From Kribbella rubisoli (lineage in GTDB: Bacteria; Actinomycetota; Actinomycetes; Propionibacteriales; Kribbellaceae): a stretch of 64,000 nt of DNA. This document shows, piece by piece, positions 16,564 through 21,230 of the stretch. The stretch is from NCBI RefSeq assembly GCF_004217145.1, contig NZ_SHKR01000014.1:62001-126000 (forward strand), written 5' to 3'. Position 1 is the first letter of the stretch, and each line of letters opens with the position of its first letter. The notes beneath the pieces were generated by a model. It saw nothing but the letters and a program-made list of their open reading frames with translations, was not told the origin of the DNA and ran no database searches. The position numbers and the translations under genes were made by a program.

Positions 16564-17235
16564 ATGGACTCCCGCCTGCCGTTGCTCACTGTCGACACGG
16601 TGATCTTTCCCGGGCTGGTGCTCCCGATTCCGGTGACCGACGTCCAGGGCCGCGCGGTGGTTCGCGACCTGGTCGAGAACGGCGGCGAACTGGTGTGCGG
16701 GGCACTCGCCGTCCGGGACGGGTACGAGCTGGGTGAGCGGGTGTTCCGGTCGCTGTACGGGACCGGATGCGCGGCGACGATCTCCGAGATCACGCTCGAC
16801 GCGGACGACGACGGCCCGGTCGAGGTGACGCTGACCGGCAACCGGCGCTTCAAGGTCGCGGAGCTCGACGGCACCGGCGACTACCTGGTCGCGGACGTCG
16901 AGTGGCTGGACGACGACCTCGGCGACGACCCGCTGGGTACGGCGATGGTCGCGGTCAAGCGGTTCCGGAAGTACGCCGAGGCAGTCAGCGAGATCAGCCG
17001 CCCAGGCCTCCACCTGGGTGACCTGCCCGACGACCCCAGCACCCTGTCCTACCTGATGTCCGCGGCCATGAAGCTCATGACCCCCGACCGCCAGAAGCTC
17101 CTCGAGGCCGCCGACGTCACCACTCGCCTGGCCCAGCTGGTCGGCCTGATCGACAACGAGCTGGCCGCGATCACCGCGCTCCCCTCGCTTCCCGCGTTCG
17201 ACCTGATCAGCTGGTCCACGCTCTCCCCCAACTGA
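16564..17235 (+). CDS. Lon N-terminal (LON substrate-binding) domain protein
   Basis: 223 aa with only the LON substrate-binding domain: LPLLTVDTVIFPGLVLPIPV at the start and a beta-rich region with VTLTGNRRFKV, then a helical half. There is no AAA+ or protease domain, so it is not Lon itself. The cellular role of such stand-alone LON-domain proteins in actinobacteria is not known. The ATG at 16564 has TAGGCT 7 nt upstream and no Shine-Dalgarno, consistent with a leaderless message. It is divergent from hisD. Confidence 0.85.
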   Translation: MDSRLPLLTVDTVIFPGLVLPIPVTDVQGRAVVRDLVENGGELVCGALAVRDGYELGERVFRSLYGTGCAATISEITLDADDDGPVEVTLTGNRRFKVAELDGTGDYLVADVEWLDDDLGDDPLGTAMVAVKRFRKYAEAVSEISRPGLHLGDLPDDPSTLSYLMSAAMKLMTPDRQKLLEAADVTTRLAQLVGLIDNELAAITALPSLPAFDLISWSTLSPN

Positions 17236-17248
17236 CATGGAGCGGCAG

Positions 17249-17284
17249 ACCACCCTACCGAAATGAATCCCAGAGCGGTATGGT
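17249..17284. promoter_or_regulatory. Candidate operator and -10 region of the toxin-antitoxin pair
   Basis: ACCACCCTACCG (17249-17260) and CGGTATGGT (17276-17284) form an imperfect inverted repeat with a 3-nt bulge. TATGGT within the right arm lies 6 nt before the antitoxin ATG, so it also fits a -10 element of a leaderless mRNA. Autorepression by a ribbon-helix-helix antitoxin is typical of such loci. Confidence 0.4.
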
Positions 17285-17290
17285 CTTGGT

Positions 17291-17527
17291 ATGAGCAAAC
17301 AGATCACGGTCAGGCTGCCCGACGACCTGGTCGACTTCATGGACGAGCTCGTCGCCACCGACAAGGCGACGAGCCGGGCGTCCGTGGTCGCCCGGGCGAT
17401 GGAGCGTGAACGCCGCCGCGAGCTGGCCGCCCGCGACCTGGCGATCTTGAGCGAGCACGGCGGGTACGACGACCTGGACGGCCTCGCCACCGCGGCCTCG
17501 GGCACCGTCCTCAGCGATCTCGACTGA
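17291..17527 (+). CDS. Ribbon-helix-helix antitoxin of a MazEF-like pair
   Basis: 78 aa. The start MSKQITVRLPDDLVDFMDEL is a CopG/MazE-type ribbon, followed by the two helices (ATSRASVVARAMERERRREL). The C-terminal 30 residues are acidic, as expected for the toxin-binding tail. Its TGA shares a base with the toxin ATG (TGATG), the usual antitoxin-first, coupled arrangement. It probably binds the inverted repeat just upstream. It lies beside the graspetide locus, but no functional link is evident. Confidence 0.88.
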   Translation: MSKQITVRLPDDLVDFMDELVATDKATSRASVVARAMERERRRELAARDLAILSEHGGYDDLDGLATAASGTVLSDLD

Positions 17528-17829
17528 TGCGCGCCCTGCACATCGCCCGGCTCGACAAACCGCGGCCGGTGGTGGTGCTGACCCGCGAGCTGATCCGCCC
17601 GCGGCTCACCAACGTCACCGTCGCGCCGATCACCAGCACGATCCGCGGCCTGTCCACCGAAGTACTGGTCGGCCCGGACAACGGCCTCGATCATCCGAGC
17701 GCGATCTCCTGCGACAACATCCAGACCATCCCCAAGGCGCAGCTCGGGCGTCTGATCGGCCATCTGCACCCAGACCAGGAGCCGCTCCTGGCCGAGGCGA
17801 TCAACCTGGCGTTCGATCTGGAGCTCTGA
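17527..17829 (+). CDS. PemK/MazF-family endoribonuclease toxin
   Basis: 100 aa. The MazF fold is visible from LDKPRPVVVLTRELIR through NVTVAPITSTIRGLSTEV and the NGLDHPSAISCDNIQTI segment to a C-terminal helix. Such toxins cleave single-stranded RNA at short sequences. The cleavage site here is unknown. Translation is coupled to the antitoxin. The last 29 bases overlap the 3' end of the convergent ATP-grasp gene, so expression of one could interfere with the other. Confidence 0.88.
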   Translation: MRALHIARLDKPRPVVVLTRELIRPRLTNVTVAPITSTIRGLSTEVLVGPDNGLDHPSAISCDNIQTIPKAQLGRLIGHLHPDQEPLLAEAINLAFDLEL

Positions 17830-18787
17830 CGGCTCCGCTCAGGGCCTCGTCGTACAGGAAGTCGGCGAAGCCGGCGGTGAGATCCAGACCGGTCAGGCCT
17901 TGCACGAACAGGAACTGCCCCTGCGGGTTCAGCTCGAGCCAGACCGGCCGGCCGTCGGGATCGAGTTTGAGGTCGACCACACCCATGCGCAGGTCCAGCA
18001 GTTCCAGCACCCGAGCCAGCGCCTGCTGGATCAGCGGATCCAGCGTCACCGCCTCGATCGGTACGTCGAGATTCCGCCGCCAGTCGAGATCCGGCGAATC
18101 GATGGTCACGGCGTACGGCGTCGTACCGCAGCACAACACCCGCAGGTGCCGCGTCCCGGGCACGTACTCCTGGAAGATCGTCGGGCAGAGCCGCAGCGCA
18201 TCGTCGTCGGCCAGATGCTCGGGCGTCACCGGGAGCGTGTAGAGCTGGCTGCTCGGCGTACCGCGGACCGCCTTCAGAATGACCTGTCCGTCGAGCACCG
18301 AGCAGAAGCGCCGGATCTCGGCCGGATCCTGGCTGACCAGCGTTCGCGGTACGACGAACCCCGCGTCCGCGGCCGCACGCAACTGGATCAGCTTGTTCTC
18401 GGCCCGCCGGGTCGCGTCCGGGTGACTCACCCAGCGTCCGTCGAACTCGTTGCGCAAGGCCCCCATCAAGGTGCTCGCACAGCTCGCGTCGACGACCTCC
18501 CGATGGGCGGGCTCGGTCAGCTCCCGGCCGGCACGCTGCGGATGGTTCCAGCGCCGGAACCAGATCGCGTCGCAGCCGGCCAGATCGAGCCGGCCGCCGT
18601 CGCGCGTCGGCACCGACGTACCGAATCCCGGTTCCGTCGACCAGCTCAGTCCGCCGGGCCGATCCGCCATCGCGTCCACCTCGACGACCTCGCACTGCGC
18701 GCCGCGGTTGCGGCGGAGGTATGCCTGGATGACCAGGGCATGCAGATCATCGGTGAACGTCAGTACCGCGATCGACGGCCGGGTCAT
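17801..18787 (-). CDS. ATP-grasp ligase of the MvdC/MvdD (graspetide-forming) type
   Basis: 328 aa. Enzymes of this family activate Asp/Glu side chains of a precursor peptide with ATP and join them to Ser/Thr (ester) or Lys (amide), making macrocycles. The N-terminal pre-ATP-grasp part holds DAIWFRRW (73-80). ENKLIQLRAA (130-139) opens the ATP-grasp domain. Lys172, QEYVPGTRHLRV (206-217), DLKLD (272-276) and ELNPQGQ (285-291) match nucleotide and Mg-binding motifs of the family. In particular, the E-x-N-P-x-G-Q-(W/F) motif is typical of graspetide ligases. The ATG directly abuts the TAG of a precursor gene with no spacer, so the two are coupled. Only one ligase is present. No transporter, protease or acetyltransferase lies beside it. 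Confidence 0.85.
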   Translation of the reverse strand: MTRPSIAVLTFTDDLHALVIQAYLRRNRGAQCEVVEVDAMADRPGGLSWSTEPGFGTSVPTRDGGRLDLAGCDAIWFRRWNHPQRAGRELTEPAHREVVDASCASTLMGALRNEFDGRWVSHPDATRRAENKLIQLRAAADAGFVVPRTLVSQDPAEIRRFCSVLDGQVILKAVRGTPSSQLYTLPVTPEHLADDDALRLCPTIFQEYVPGTRHLRVLCCGTTPYAVTIDSPDLDWRRNLDVPIEAVTLDPLIQQALARVLELLDLRMGVVDLKLDPDGRPVWLELNPQGQFLFVQGLTGLDLTAGFADFLYDEALSGAVRAPDRTPG

Positions 18788-19012
18788 CTATTCGGCCAGG
18801 TAGTCGCAGTCGTCCATGCAGTCGTTCGGCAGCGTCGCGGACAGGCACTCCGACCCGCCGCCGTTGCGCGCGAACTCCACCGGGAGCCCGACGTCGTCGC
18901 GGACGCGCTGCTCCCACTCGTGCAGCTTGTCCGTCGGCACCAGATCGAACCGCGACGGCTGGTACATGAAGACCACCGGCTGCTTGCTGTTACCCGCGTT
19001 CGGTTCCGTCAT
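18788..19012 (-). CDS. Graspetide-like RiPP precursor peptide 2
   Basis: 74 aa, no signal peptide. Residues 11-43 are a leader-like helix-prone region related to precursor 1: P-x-V-F-M-(Y/F)-Q-P-x-x-F, then L-x-E-W-E and V-x-x-x-x-G-L. The C-terminal core (about 51-74) has hydroxyl donors Ser54, Ser58 and Thr60, followed by Cys65-x-Asp-Asp-Cys-Asp-Tyr and ends in Glu74. This is the donor-then-acidic-acceptor layout of graspetide cores. There are three cysteines. A GGG lies before the core, but no C39 protease is nearby. The stop abuts the ligase ATG, and the start is 12 nt after precursor 1. Family assignment is inferred from the neighbouring ligase and the pattern. Confidence 0.75.
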   Translation of the reverse strand: MTEPNAGNSKQPVVFMYQPSRFDLVPTDKLHEWEQRVRDDVGLPVEFARNGGGSECLSATLPNDCMDDCDYLAE

Positions 19013-19024
19013 CGCCCCGGCCTC

Positions 19025-19276
19025 TCACTCGTGCCAGTCGGAGTCGTCGGCACAGATCTGGCCGTTGCCGCAGTTCGACCACGACGCGGATCGCAGCATC
19101 AGGTCCCGTTCGAACCCGTCCGTCTTCAGGCCGAAGCCCTCCTGGACGCTGCGTTCCCACTCCGACAGCCGCTCCGGCGTCACCGGCTCGAAGCTCGTCG
19201 GCTGGAACATGAACACGGCCGGCTTGCGCCCCTCGTCGAGCGCAGCACGGAATCGTTCCTCCCGCTCGTCCCCCAT
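19025..19276 (-). CDS. Graspetide-like RiPP precursor peptide 1
   Basis: 83 aa. The ATG at 19276 is chosen over the longer frame (to 19447) because GGGGAGGGG, the strongest Shine-Dalgarno in the region, is just upstream. An acidic, basic-mixed N-terminus precedes the leader block shared with precursor 2 (RKPAVFMFQPTSFEPV, then LSEWERSV and GFGL). The core (about 60-83) carries Ser63, Ser65 and Ser67, two Cys (69 and 75), then Asp77, Asp78, Asp80 and the terminal Glu83, with Trp81 where precursor 2 has Tyr. Core and leader diverge at different rates, as expected of RiPP precursors. It is the first gene of the three-gene unit. Confidence 0.75.
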   Translation of the reverse strand: MGDEREERFRAALDEGRKPAVFMFQPTSFEPVTPERLSEWERSVQEGFGLKTDGFERDLMLRSASWSNCGNGQICADDSDWHE

Positions 19277-19310
19277 GACCCCTCCCCAGGTCAGGCATCC
19301 CCTGGCGACC

Positions 19311-19340
19311 AAGCTACGCCTGGCCGCCGTTCCGCCACAA
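19311..19340 (-). promoter_or_regulatory. Weak candidate promoter for the graspetide-like operon
   Basis: On the minus strand TTGTGG (19335-19340) and TAGCTT (19311-19316) are 18 nt apart, within the 103-nt spacer after ilvD. The first precursor ATG lies 34 nt downstream of the -10. Read-through from ilvD is the alternative, since no terminator hairpin is obvious in the spacer. Confidence 0.3.
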
Positions 19341-19379
19341 TGCGTCAGTGCGGATACTGCCGGGAAGTTGCGCAGGGCA

Positions 19380-21230
19380 TCAGCCCAGCTTGGAGACGTC
19401 CCGGACGGCGCCGCGGTCGGCGCTGGTCGCCATCGCGGCGTACGCACGAAGGGCCGCGGAGACCTTCCGCTCGCGGTTCTTGGGCGCGTAGACGCCGTTC
19501 AGCGCGTCGCGGCGGGCGGTCAGCTCGGCCTCGTCGACCAGGAGCTCGATGGAGCGGTTCGGGATGTCGATGCGGATCTGGTCGCCGTCGTGGACCAGCG
19601 CGATCGTCCCGCCCGCCGCCGCCTCGGGTGAGGCGTGGCCGATCGAGAGCCCCGACGTACCGCCGGAGAAGCGGCCGTCGGTGATCAGCGCGCAGACCTT
19701 GCCGAGACCGCGGCCCTTCAGGTACGAGGTCGGGTACAGCATCTCCTGCATGCCCGGACCGCCCTTCGGGCCCTCGTACCGGATCACGACCACGTCGCCG
19801 GGCTGGATCTGCTTGGCCAGGATCTTCTCGACGGCCTGCTCCTGCGACTCGCACACCACCGCGGGACCCTCGAACGTCCAGATCGACTCGTCCACGCCGG
19901 CCGTCTTCACGACACAGCCGTCGACGGCCAGGTTGCCCTTCAGTACTGCGAGACCGCCGTCCTTGGAGTAGGCGTGCTCGAGGTCGCGGATGCACCCGCC
20001 GGCCGCGTCGGTGTCGAGGGTGTCCCAGCGCTCCGACTGCGAGAAGGCAGTTGCCGACCGCACGCACCCCGGCGCCGCGTGCCACAGCTCGACCGCCTCC
20101 GGCGACGGCGAACCGCCGCGCAGGTCCCACGTCTTCAGCCACTCGTCGATCGAGTCGCTGTGCACGGTGTGGATGTTCTCGTTCAGCAGGCCGGCACGGT
20201 GCAGTTCACCGAGGATGGCGGGGATGCCGCCGGCGCGGTGCACGTCCTCCATGTAGTACGTGCCGCCCGGGGCGACGTTCGGCGCGACCTTGGCCAGGCA
20301 CGGGACCCGGCGCGAGACCGCGTTGATGTCGTCGAGGTCGAAGCCGACCTCGGCCTCCTGCGCGGCCGCGAGCAGGTGCAGGATCGTGTTGGTCGATCCG
20401 CCCATCGCGATGTCCAGCGCCATCGCGTTCCCGAAGGCTTCCTTGGTCGCGATGTTGCGCGGAAGCACGGTCGCGTCGTCGTTGTCGTAGTACCGCTTGG
20501 TGATCTGTACGACGGTCTCGCCGGCCTTCTCGTACAGCGCGCGGCGGGCGGTGTGGGTCGCGAGCACGGACCCGTTGCCCGGCAGCGAGAGGCCGATCGC
20601 CTCGGTCAGGCAGTTCATCGAGTTCGCGGTGAACATGCCCGAACACGAACCGCAGGTCGGGCAGGCGTTCTCCTCGATCCGCAGGATGTCGGCGTCGGAG
20701 ACGTTCTCGTTGACGGCCTCGGACATCGCGTCGATCAGGTCGAGCTTGCGGACCGTGCCGTCGACCAGCGTGGCCCGGCCGGCCTCCATCGGGCCGCCGG
20801 AGACGAACACGGTCGGGATGTTCAGCCGGAGCGCGGCATTCAGCATGCCGGGGGTGATCTTGTCGCAGTTCGAGATGCAGACCAGCGCGTCCGCGCAGTG
20901 CGCCTCGACCATGTACTCGACCGAGTCCGCGATCAGGTCCCGCGACGGCAGGCTGTAGAGCATGCCGCCGTGGCCCATCGCGATCCCGTCGTCGACGGCG
21001 ATCGTGTTGAACTCGCGGGCGATGCCGCCGGCCGCGTGGATGGCCTCGGAGACGATCCGGCCGACCGGTGCGAGGTGGGTGTGGCCGGGGACGAACTCGG
21101 TGAAGCTGTTCGCCACCGCGATGATCGGCTTGCCGAAGTCCTCGCGGGCTACCCCGGAGGCCTGCATGAGCGCGCGGGCGCCCGCCATGTTGCGGCCGTG
21201 GGTGACGGTACGGGACCTCAGAGCAGGCAC
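19380..21230 (-). CDS. ilvD: Dihydroxy-acid dehydratase
   Basis: Fe-S enzyme of valine, isoleucine and leucine synthesis that dehydrates 2,3-dihydroxy acids to 2-keto acids. [12 protein letters not shown] near the start, the cluster cysteines in [10 protein letters not shown] and [17 protein letters not shown], and [15 protein letters not shown] near the end identify it. The first loop reads [13 protein letters not shown], without the extra Cys of the plant-type [2Fe-2S] enzymes, so it resembles the E. coli [4Fe-4S] type. The open frame extends to 21470, but the GTG at 21230 has GAGGAGAT upstream and gives 616 aa, the family length. Confidence 0.95.

Follow-up and report, generated by a model that had tools for sequence, protein, structure and literature searches.

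Reading of the ORF list showed that the window, i.e., the whole 64-kb stretch of Kribbella rubisoli DNA analyzed here, is a housekeeping region with his genes, ilvD, translation factors, and cell-division and murein genes. Within it, the earlier note had placed two short genes and an ATP-grasp gene, and all three were confirmed, on the minus strand (Table 1). The ligase gene was also said to follow without a gap, and this held, as the ligase ATG comes immediately after the precursor 2 TAG stop, which is in frame with the ligase. A simple scan found no sigma-70-like promoter or terminator for the three-gene unit. The unit sits in a slot whose left border is ilvD, upstream and on the same strand, and whose right border is mazF/pemK, which is convergent to the ligase, overlaps its 3' end by 29 bp, and occurs at the same site across Kribbella. 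A stand-alone LON substrate-binding domain protein (PF02190; 16564-17235, plus strand), without the protease part, adjoins the mazEF pair.

Table 1. Positions of the graspetide-type unit, its predicted parts and the bordering genes, numbered along the window.
Feature	Position	Strand	Remarks
Precursor 1	19276-19025	minus	83 aa
Precursor 2	19012-18788	minus	74 aa; 12 bp from precursor 1
Graspetide-type ATP-grasp ligase	18787-17801	minus	328 aa
Predicted core of precursor 1 (S63-E83)	19028-19090	minus	core extent predicted
Predicted core of precursor 2 (N50-E74)	18791-18865	minus	core extent predicted
ExNPxG motif codons of the ligase (ELNPQGQ)	17915-17935	minus	
mazF/pemK toxin gene	17527-17829	plus	PF02452, E 2e-14; outside the graspetide system
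ilvD	19380-21230	minus	PF00920/PF24877; outside the graspetide system

The ATP-grasp protein keeps the ExNPxG motif, as had been noticed before, in the form ELNPQGQ at residues 285-291. In the preset comparison with non-RiPP ATP-grasp enzymes, it grouped with the RiPP ligases, scoring 165.5, 128.7, and 115.8 bits against the NCBIfam peptide-maturase models TIGR04187, TIGR04185, and TIGR04184, versus 43.5 bits against RimK. The TIGR04187 score lies below the curated cut-off of 350 bits, and no curated NCBIfam cut-off was reached, which places the ligase inside the superfamily and outside any named subfamily. All its PDB sequence matches were graspetide ligases (9bou being PruB). A structure model was generated with AlphaFold2, with precursor 2 fused in front through its TAG stop, and gave a mean pLDDT of 62.9, with low confidence concentrated in the fused precursor and in certain loops; the leader part, which bears on leader docking, was poorly predicted (pLDDT about 40-60). 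The best 32 PDB fold matches of the ligase model were all graspetide macrocyclase chains (MdnC, AMdnB, CdnC, PsnB, PruB, and MdnB), and RimK first appeared at rank 33. These results placed the enzyme in the graspetide-synthetase branch of the ATP-grasp enzymes. A search of the organism's own genome for a second ligase found none.

The two small genes had been described as related, and their products indeed shared 34% identity; across the eight Kribbella sequences, 24 columns were invariant. Precursor 1 carries the leader motif RKPAVFMFQP..F..V...L..WE and the C-terminal region SASWSNCGNGQICADDSDWHE, and precursor 2 the leader motif KQPVVFMYQP..F..V...L..WE and the C-terminal region NGGGSECLSATLPNDCMDDCDYLAE. 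The predicted core of precursor 1 starts right after Arg62, and contains the candidate donors S63, S65, and S67, the candidate acceptors D77, D78, and D80, and Cys at 69 and 75; that of precursor 2 starts right after Arg49, with S54, S58, and T60 as candidate donors, D64, D67, D68, and D70 as candidate acceptors, and Cys at 56, 65, and 69. As in graspetide systems, a short precursor gene adjoins the ligase, a conserved leader is followed by a separate C-terminal core, and this core offers hydroxyl or amine donors together with carboxylate acceptors.

Among 38 genomes of the genus, the locus was found in three other Kribbella (G026, G034, and G012), with ligase identities of 92-94%. In G012 (L155; L032, Kribbella jiaozuonensis), a frameshift past roughly residue 150 splits the ligase but leaves both precursors intact, and this is either a pseudogene or an assembly error. 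In a sample of 392 genomes of the order, no ligase apart from those of the Kribbella carriers came closer than E 7e-39, and the precursor profile gave nothing above chance beyond the four Kribbella. The nearest further ligases, found in a class sample and in family f20, were 45-47% identical and came from four genera, six genomes being recovered by the ligase and two more by the precursor. A third branch was found on a plasmid of Streptomyces sp. NBC_00158, where the ligase is 38.6% identical, precursor and ligase overlap by 4 bp, and both are annotated as hypothetical proteins. About 4 kb beyond this plasmid precursor (L209:4759-5010) is a gene for a lantibiotic dehydratase.

The Kribbella, f20, and Streptomyces plasmid ligases formed one clade with support of 100/100 on a stem of about 1.1-1.2 changes per column, and the catalytic motif and 50 further residues were invariant among the ligases. 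Precursors adjoin the ligase at every locus of the clade. Thus, small genes with a related leader are conserved beside the homologous ligases in the three other Kribbella, the eight f20 genomes, and the Streptomyces plasmid, as the earlier reading of the locus required. A profile built solely from the Kribbella precursors retrieved that of the Streptomyces plasmid with an E value, scaled to 14386 ORFs, of 3.2e-7. With a profile of the f20 precursors only, those of Kribbella came next after f20, but at E 0.3-3, and the case for homology between f20 and Kribbella precursors is thus made by the position of the genes, the phylogeny of the ligases, and the link through Streptomyces.

The f20 precursor has the sequence MTVDTxVRPAIYVGQERMAxAPAPxLAxWERxLIERLxLEWDLHxIESMHP(D/N)ETISGSGDGWDDCDY, and that of the Streptomyces plasmid ends in APPVVFSTQATGFVELKTPEELRAWEVALRTTTGMEISAEALAGHTCETGCGPNCCCDKCDAA. 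Over all precursors, only M1, P19, L37, W40, E41, and D77 (precursor 1 numbering) were invariant. The leader segments P-A-V-F-M, P-V-V-F-M, P-A-I-Y-V, and P-V-V-F-S, with their invariant Pro, fit the graspetide leader form Phhx(1,2)h (PMC8939145). The cores are acidic and Cys-bearing, with a net charge of -2 to -6. The proposed core pattern C-x-D-D-(C/S)-D-(Y/W)-x(1,2)-E describes both Kribbella precursors but did not extend to the relatives, as its initial Cys and final Glu are missing in f20, and Streptomyces has Lys for the second Asp. The Kribbella cores, both of them, share with that of Streptomyces a pair of Cys in the arrangement S-x-C ... C-x-D. In f20, neither of these Cys is kept, and the cores carry only the Cys of DDCD; this residue is Ser in precursor 1. 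The Streptomyces precursor has six Cys within its last 22 residues, along with two Thr and two Asp. Genome G832 encodes two f20-type precursors; the second, upstream of the ligase (L150, 5500-5760, minus-strand region), has 63 aa, ends HPPYQTPTWCHGILDDLI, and combines the leader of the other f20 precursors with a different core, so two precursors per ligase are not confined to Kribbella. All four core types show an alternating spacing of donors (S/T/C at i, i+2, and i+4), but shuffled sequences reproduced it in 19, 15, 2.7, and 1.8% of cases, and this pattern, chosen post hoc, is no proof.

The absence of an adjacent exporter, protease, or acetyltransferase held for the window but not as a property of the family, as each of the eight f20 loci has an ABC exporter gene whose start lies at the stop codon of the ligase. 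Its product of about 580 aa has ABC membrane and ATPase domains, is 75-83% identical between loci, and contains no C39 peptidase domain. Beside the ligase, no exporter was found at any of the four Kribbella loci, and a search of the K. rubisoli genome for the f20 type gave only general ABC exporters at 39% identity or less, common to other Kribbella. The related proposal that maturation relies on genes elsewhere therefore stands for Kribbella, and for leader removal everywhere, but not for export in f20, where the exporter is in the operon.

To quantify selection, synonymous and nonsynonymous differences were counted pairwise among the four Kribbella and summed over genome pairs, so that the counts are not independent. 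The last 24 codons of precursor 1 showed 12 synonymous and 0 nonsynonymous differences, and the last 28 codons of precursor 2 showed 24 and 0, i.e., 36 versus 0 for the cores combined. The pN/pS was 0 for the Kribbella cores and 0.13 for the ligase; in f20, it was 0.12 for the core, 0.45 for the leader, and 0.33 for the ligase. The direction of these values is clear, and indicates that both small ORFs are translated genes with the core as their most constrained part. That the locus is kept in four Kribbella with purely synonymous core changes indicates more than chance, and a core kept this strictly within two lineages points to a fixed target rather than a rapidly varying weapon.

The junction between ilvD and mazEF (window 17235-19380; L167-L196) varies by Kribbella species, being empty or holding the graspetide unit, a phosphotransferase-like gene, or an acetyltransferase-like gene. 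In many other Kribbella without the unit, the distance from the ilvD stop to the convergent mazF end ranges from a few bases up to a few hundred; by the translations read, an aminoglycoside-phosphotransferase-like gene occupies the slot in six and an acetyltransferase-like gene in one. A search for remnants of the graspetide locus at this junction in other Kribbella gave only matches of 20-21 bp. In the ilvD tree, the four locus carriers cluster at modest support, and one phosphotransferase carrier falls within this cluster. The slot looks like a site of repeated gene gain and exchange.

Among published systems, of which 174 graspetide precursor families (PMC8939145) and 43 RODEO groups, several of Actinomycetota (PMC13097080), have been described, the closest ring plan is that of the graspimiditides (fuscimiditide ThfA/ThfB and amycolimiditide; group 13). 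These are likewise actinobacterial, and form a Thr-Asp ester hairpin with C-terminal acceptors (PMC13003496, PMC12291112); their leader segment RPFG and the segments RPAI, KPAV, and QPVV found here have an R-P-hydrophobic segment in common. However, a PIMT-type O-methyltransferase is adjacent in the graspimiditides, whereas none was recognized near the unit in the window or, by gene names read by eye, among the genes beside the relatives. In addition, the cores here carry Cys and D-x-(C/S)-D, and no NCBIfam or Pfam family matches the precursors above cut-off. The pairs of TIGR04187 ligase (GRASP_SAV_5884) and TIGR04186 precursor (GRASP_targ), present in many Streptomyces, belong to the same phylum and include the best NCBIfam model for the ligase, but the ligase falls in a separate clade and under their cut-off. 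TIGR04186 matched neither P0001, P0002, and P0005 nor the f20 precursor, and the positive control beside L033 scored 84.5 bits. The microviridin ligases MdnB/MdnC, AMdnB, and CdnC and the plesiocin ligase PsnB are alike in fold and catalytic motif, but are only 20-27% identical to the ligase in fold alignments, and neither their T-x-K-x-P-S-D or TTxxxxEE cores nor an acetyltransferase were found here. By the features tested, the locus is neither a TIGR04186/04187 pair nor a graspimiditide locus. Kribbella is absent from the text of PMC8939145, and no report of this branch's product was found in the literature.

By the features examined, the product is very probably a graspetide, its omega-ester bonds being predicted from the enzyme class, and the locus very probably belongs to a small, isolated, Cys-bearing branch of these peptides. 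The earlier suggestion that the unit makes a new graspetide is thus supported as to the type of locus; its novelty is only partly shown, by the lack of a matching NCBIfam or Pfam precursor family.

We consider it highly likely that this is a small graspetide (omega-ester peptide) locus, with two precursors and one ligase, working by the following steps. The operon would be transcribed and both precursors made, with the ligase translationally coupled to precursor 2, as the stop-start contact suggests. To bind the leader, the ligase would use the conserved segment xP[AV][VI][FY] and the amphipathic stretch L..WE..(L/V), in a role analogous to that of PFFARFL in the microviridins and RPFG in the graspimiditides. 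From what is known of the enzyme class, it would then use ATP to phosphorylate side-chain carboxylates in the C-terminal D-x-(C/S)-D block, and upstream Ser/Thr hydroxyls would attack them; the nested omega-ester rings so formed would number two or three, each with a loss of 18 Da. In the Streptomyces core, the only hydroxyl donors are T66 and T69 and the acceptors are D78 and D81 (and E68); this set of two Thr and two Asp, spaced i,i+3 on each side, suggests a two-ring hairpin, for which T69-D78 with T66-D81 nested would be the simplest plan. This is comparable to the fuscimiditide rings Thr7-Asp18 and Thr3-Asp22 (PMC12291112). The Kribbella cores could hold up to three rings. Finally, the leader would be removed and the peptide exported, in f20 by the in-operon ABC exporter, which has no peptidase domain, and in Kribbella by something encoded elsewhere, unless the peptide acts inside the cell.

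The Cys residues allow for a variant of this product in which they take part in the native cross-linked core, forming a disulfide rung alongside the ladder of omega-esters or serving as donors of a native omega-thioester, with the Streptomyces plasmid relative as the extreme case. The shared Cys pair, lost at both positions together in f20, and the Cys-rich Streptomyces end are consistent with it, and thioesters have been obtained with graspetide synthetases, although as non-native products, the published natural graspetides being esters and amides (PMC13097080). Nevertheless, the unit has no neighboring gene for an oxidase or radical SAM enzyme, the co-loss of the pair rests on three lineages, and the most constant Cys, that of DDCD, lies beside the acceptors, is replaced by Ser in precursor 1, and is the sole Cys in f20. 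We regard such Cys involvement as possible but doubtful; of the two forms, a disulfide is more likely than a thioester. The same acidic, Cys-bearing cores (DDCD, CCCDKCD) could instead bind a metal ion, with the ligase tuning the peptide and the f20 ABC protein exporting a metallophore. The Streptomyces core HTCETGCGPNCCCDKCDAA does resemble metallothionein-like spacing, but no metal-uptake or metal-regulated gene was recognized nearby, and the f20 cores have a single Cys, making metal binding improbable.

The remaining explanations question the pathway itself. Loss of the exporter might have left a decaying, productless locus in Kribbella, where no locus has an exporter, the best homologue in the own genome is 39% identical and of a kind that every Kribbella has, and one of the four ligase copies is frameshifted in its assembly; the purifying selection on cores and ligase speaks against this, and we find decay unlikely. 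Finally, the enzyme shares the ATP-grasp fold with RimK, which scored 43 bits, and could be a tail ligase adding amino acids to, or ligating, another substrate, with the small proteins as partners rather than precursors. This is very improbable, as RimK lay 73-120 bits under the maturase models and behind 32 macrocyclase chains by fold, and the small genes, with conserved leaders and variable cores at the end, are precursor-like.

The preferred graspetide reading leaves the picture of the class as such unchanged. It would offer a compact system of two precursors and one enzyme, whose cores trypsin would release by cutting after a single Arg. The calculated masses of these C-terminal peptides, unmodified and with free Cys, are 2280.844 Da for SASWSNCGNGQICADDSDWHE and 2591.976 Da for NGGGSECLSATLPNDCMDDCDYLAE, and each ring would take away 18.011 Da. 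The cores of Kribbella, f20, and Streptomyces would form a natural series for a single clade of ligases, and the system would reveal whether Cys-bearing cores are natural substrates of graspetide ligases. Ligases of separate actinobacterial clades were also observed beside small genes at L113 and L115 (family f7) and at L075 and L076 (family f2). These small genes end SSDDGVHCDSLD, GSDDGINCDSLD, or TSDDCAPIDTILT, with Asp and Cys near the C-terminus, and are candidates for further Cys-bearing graspetides.
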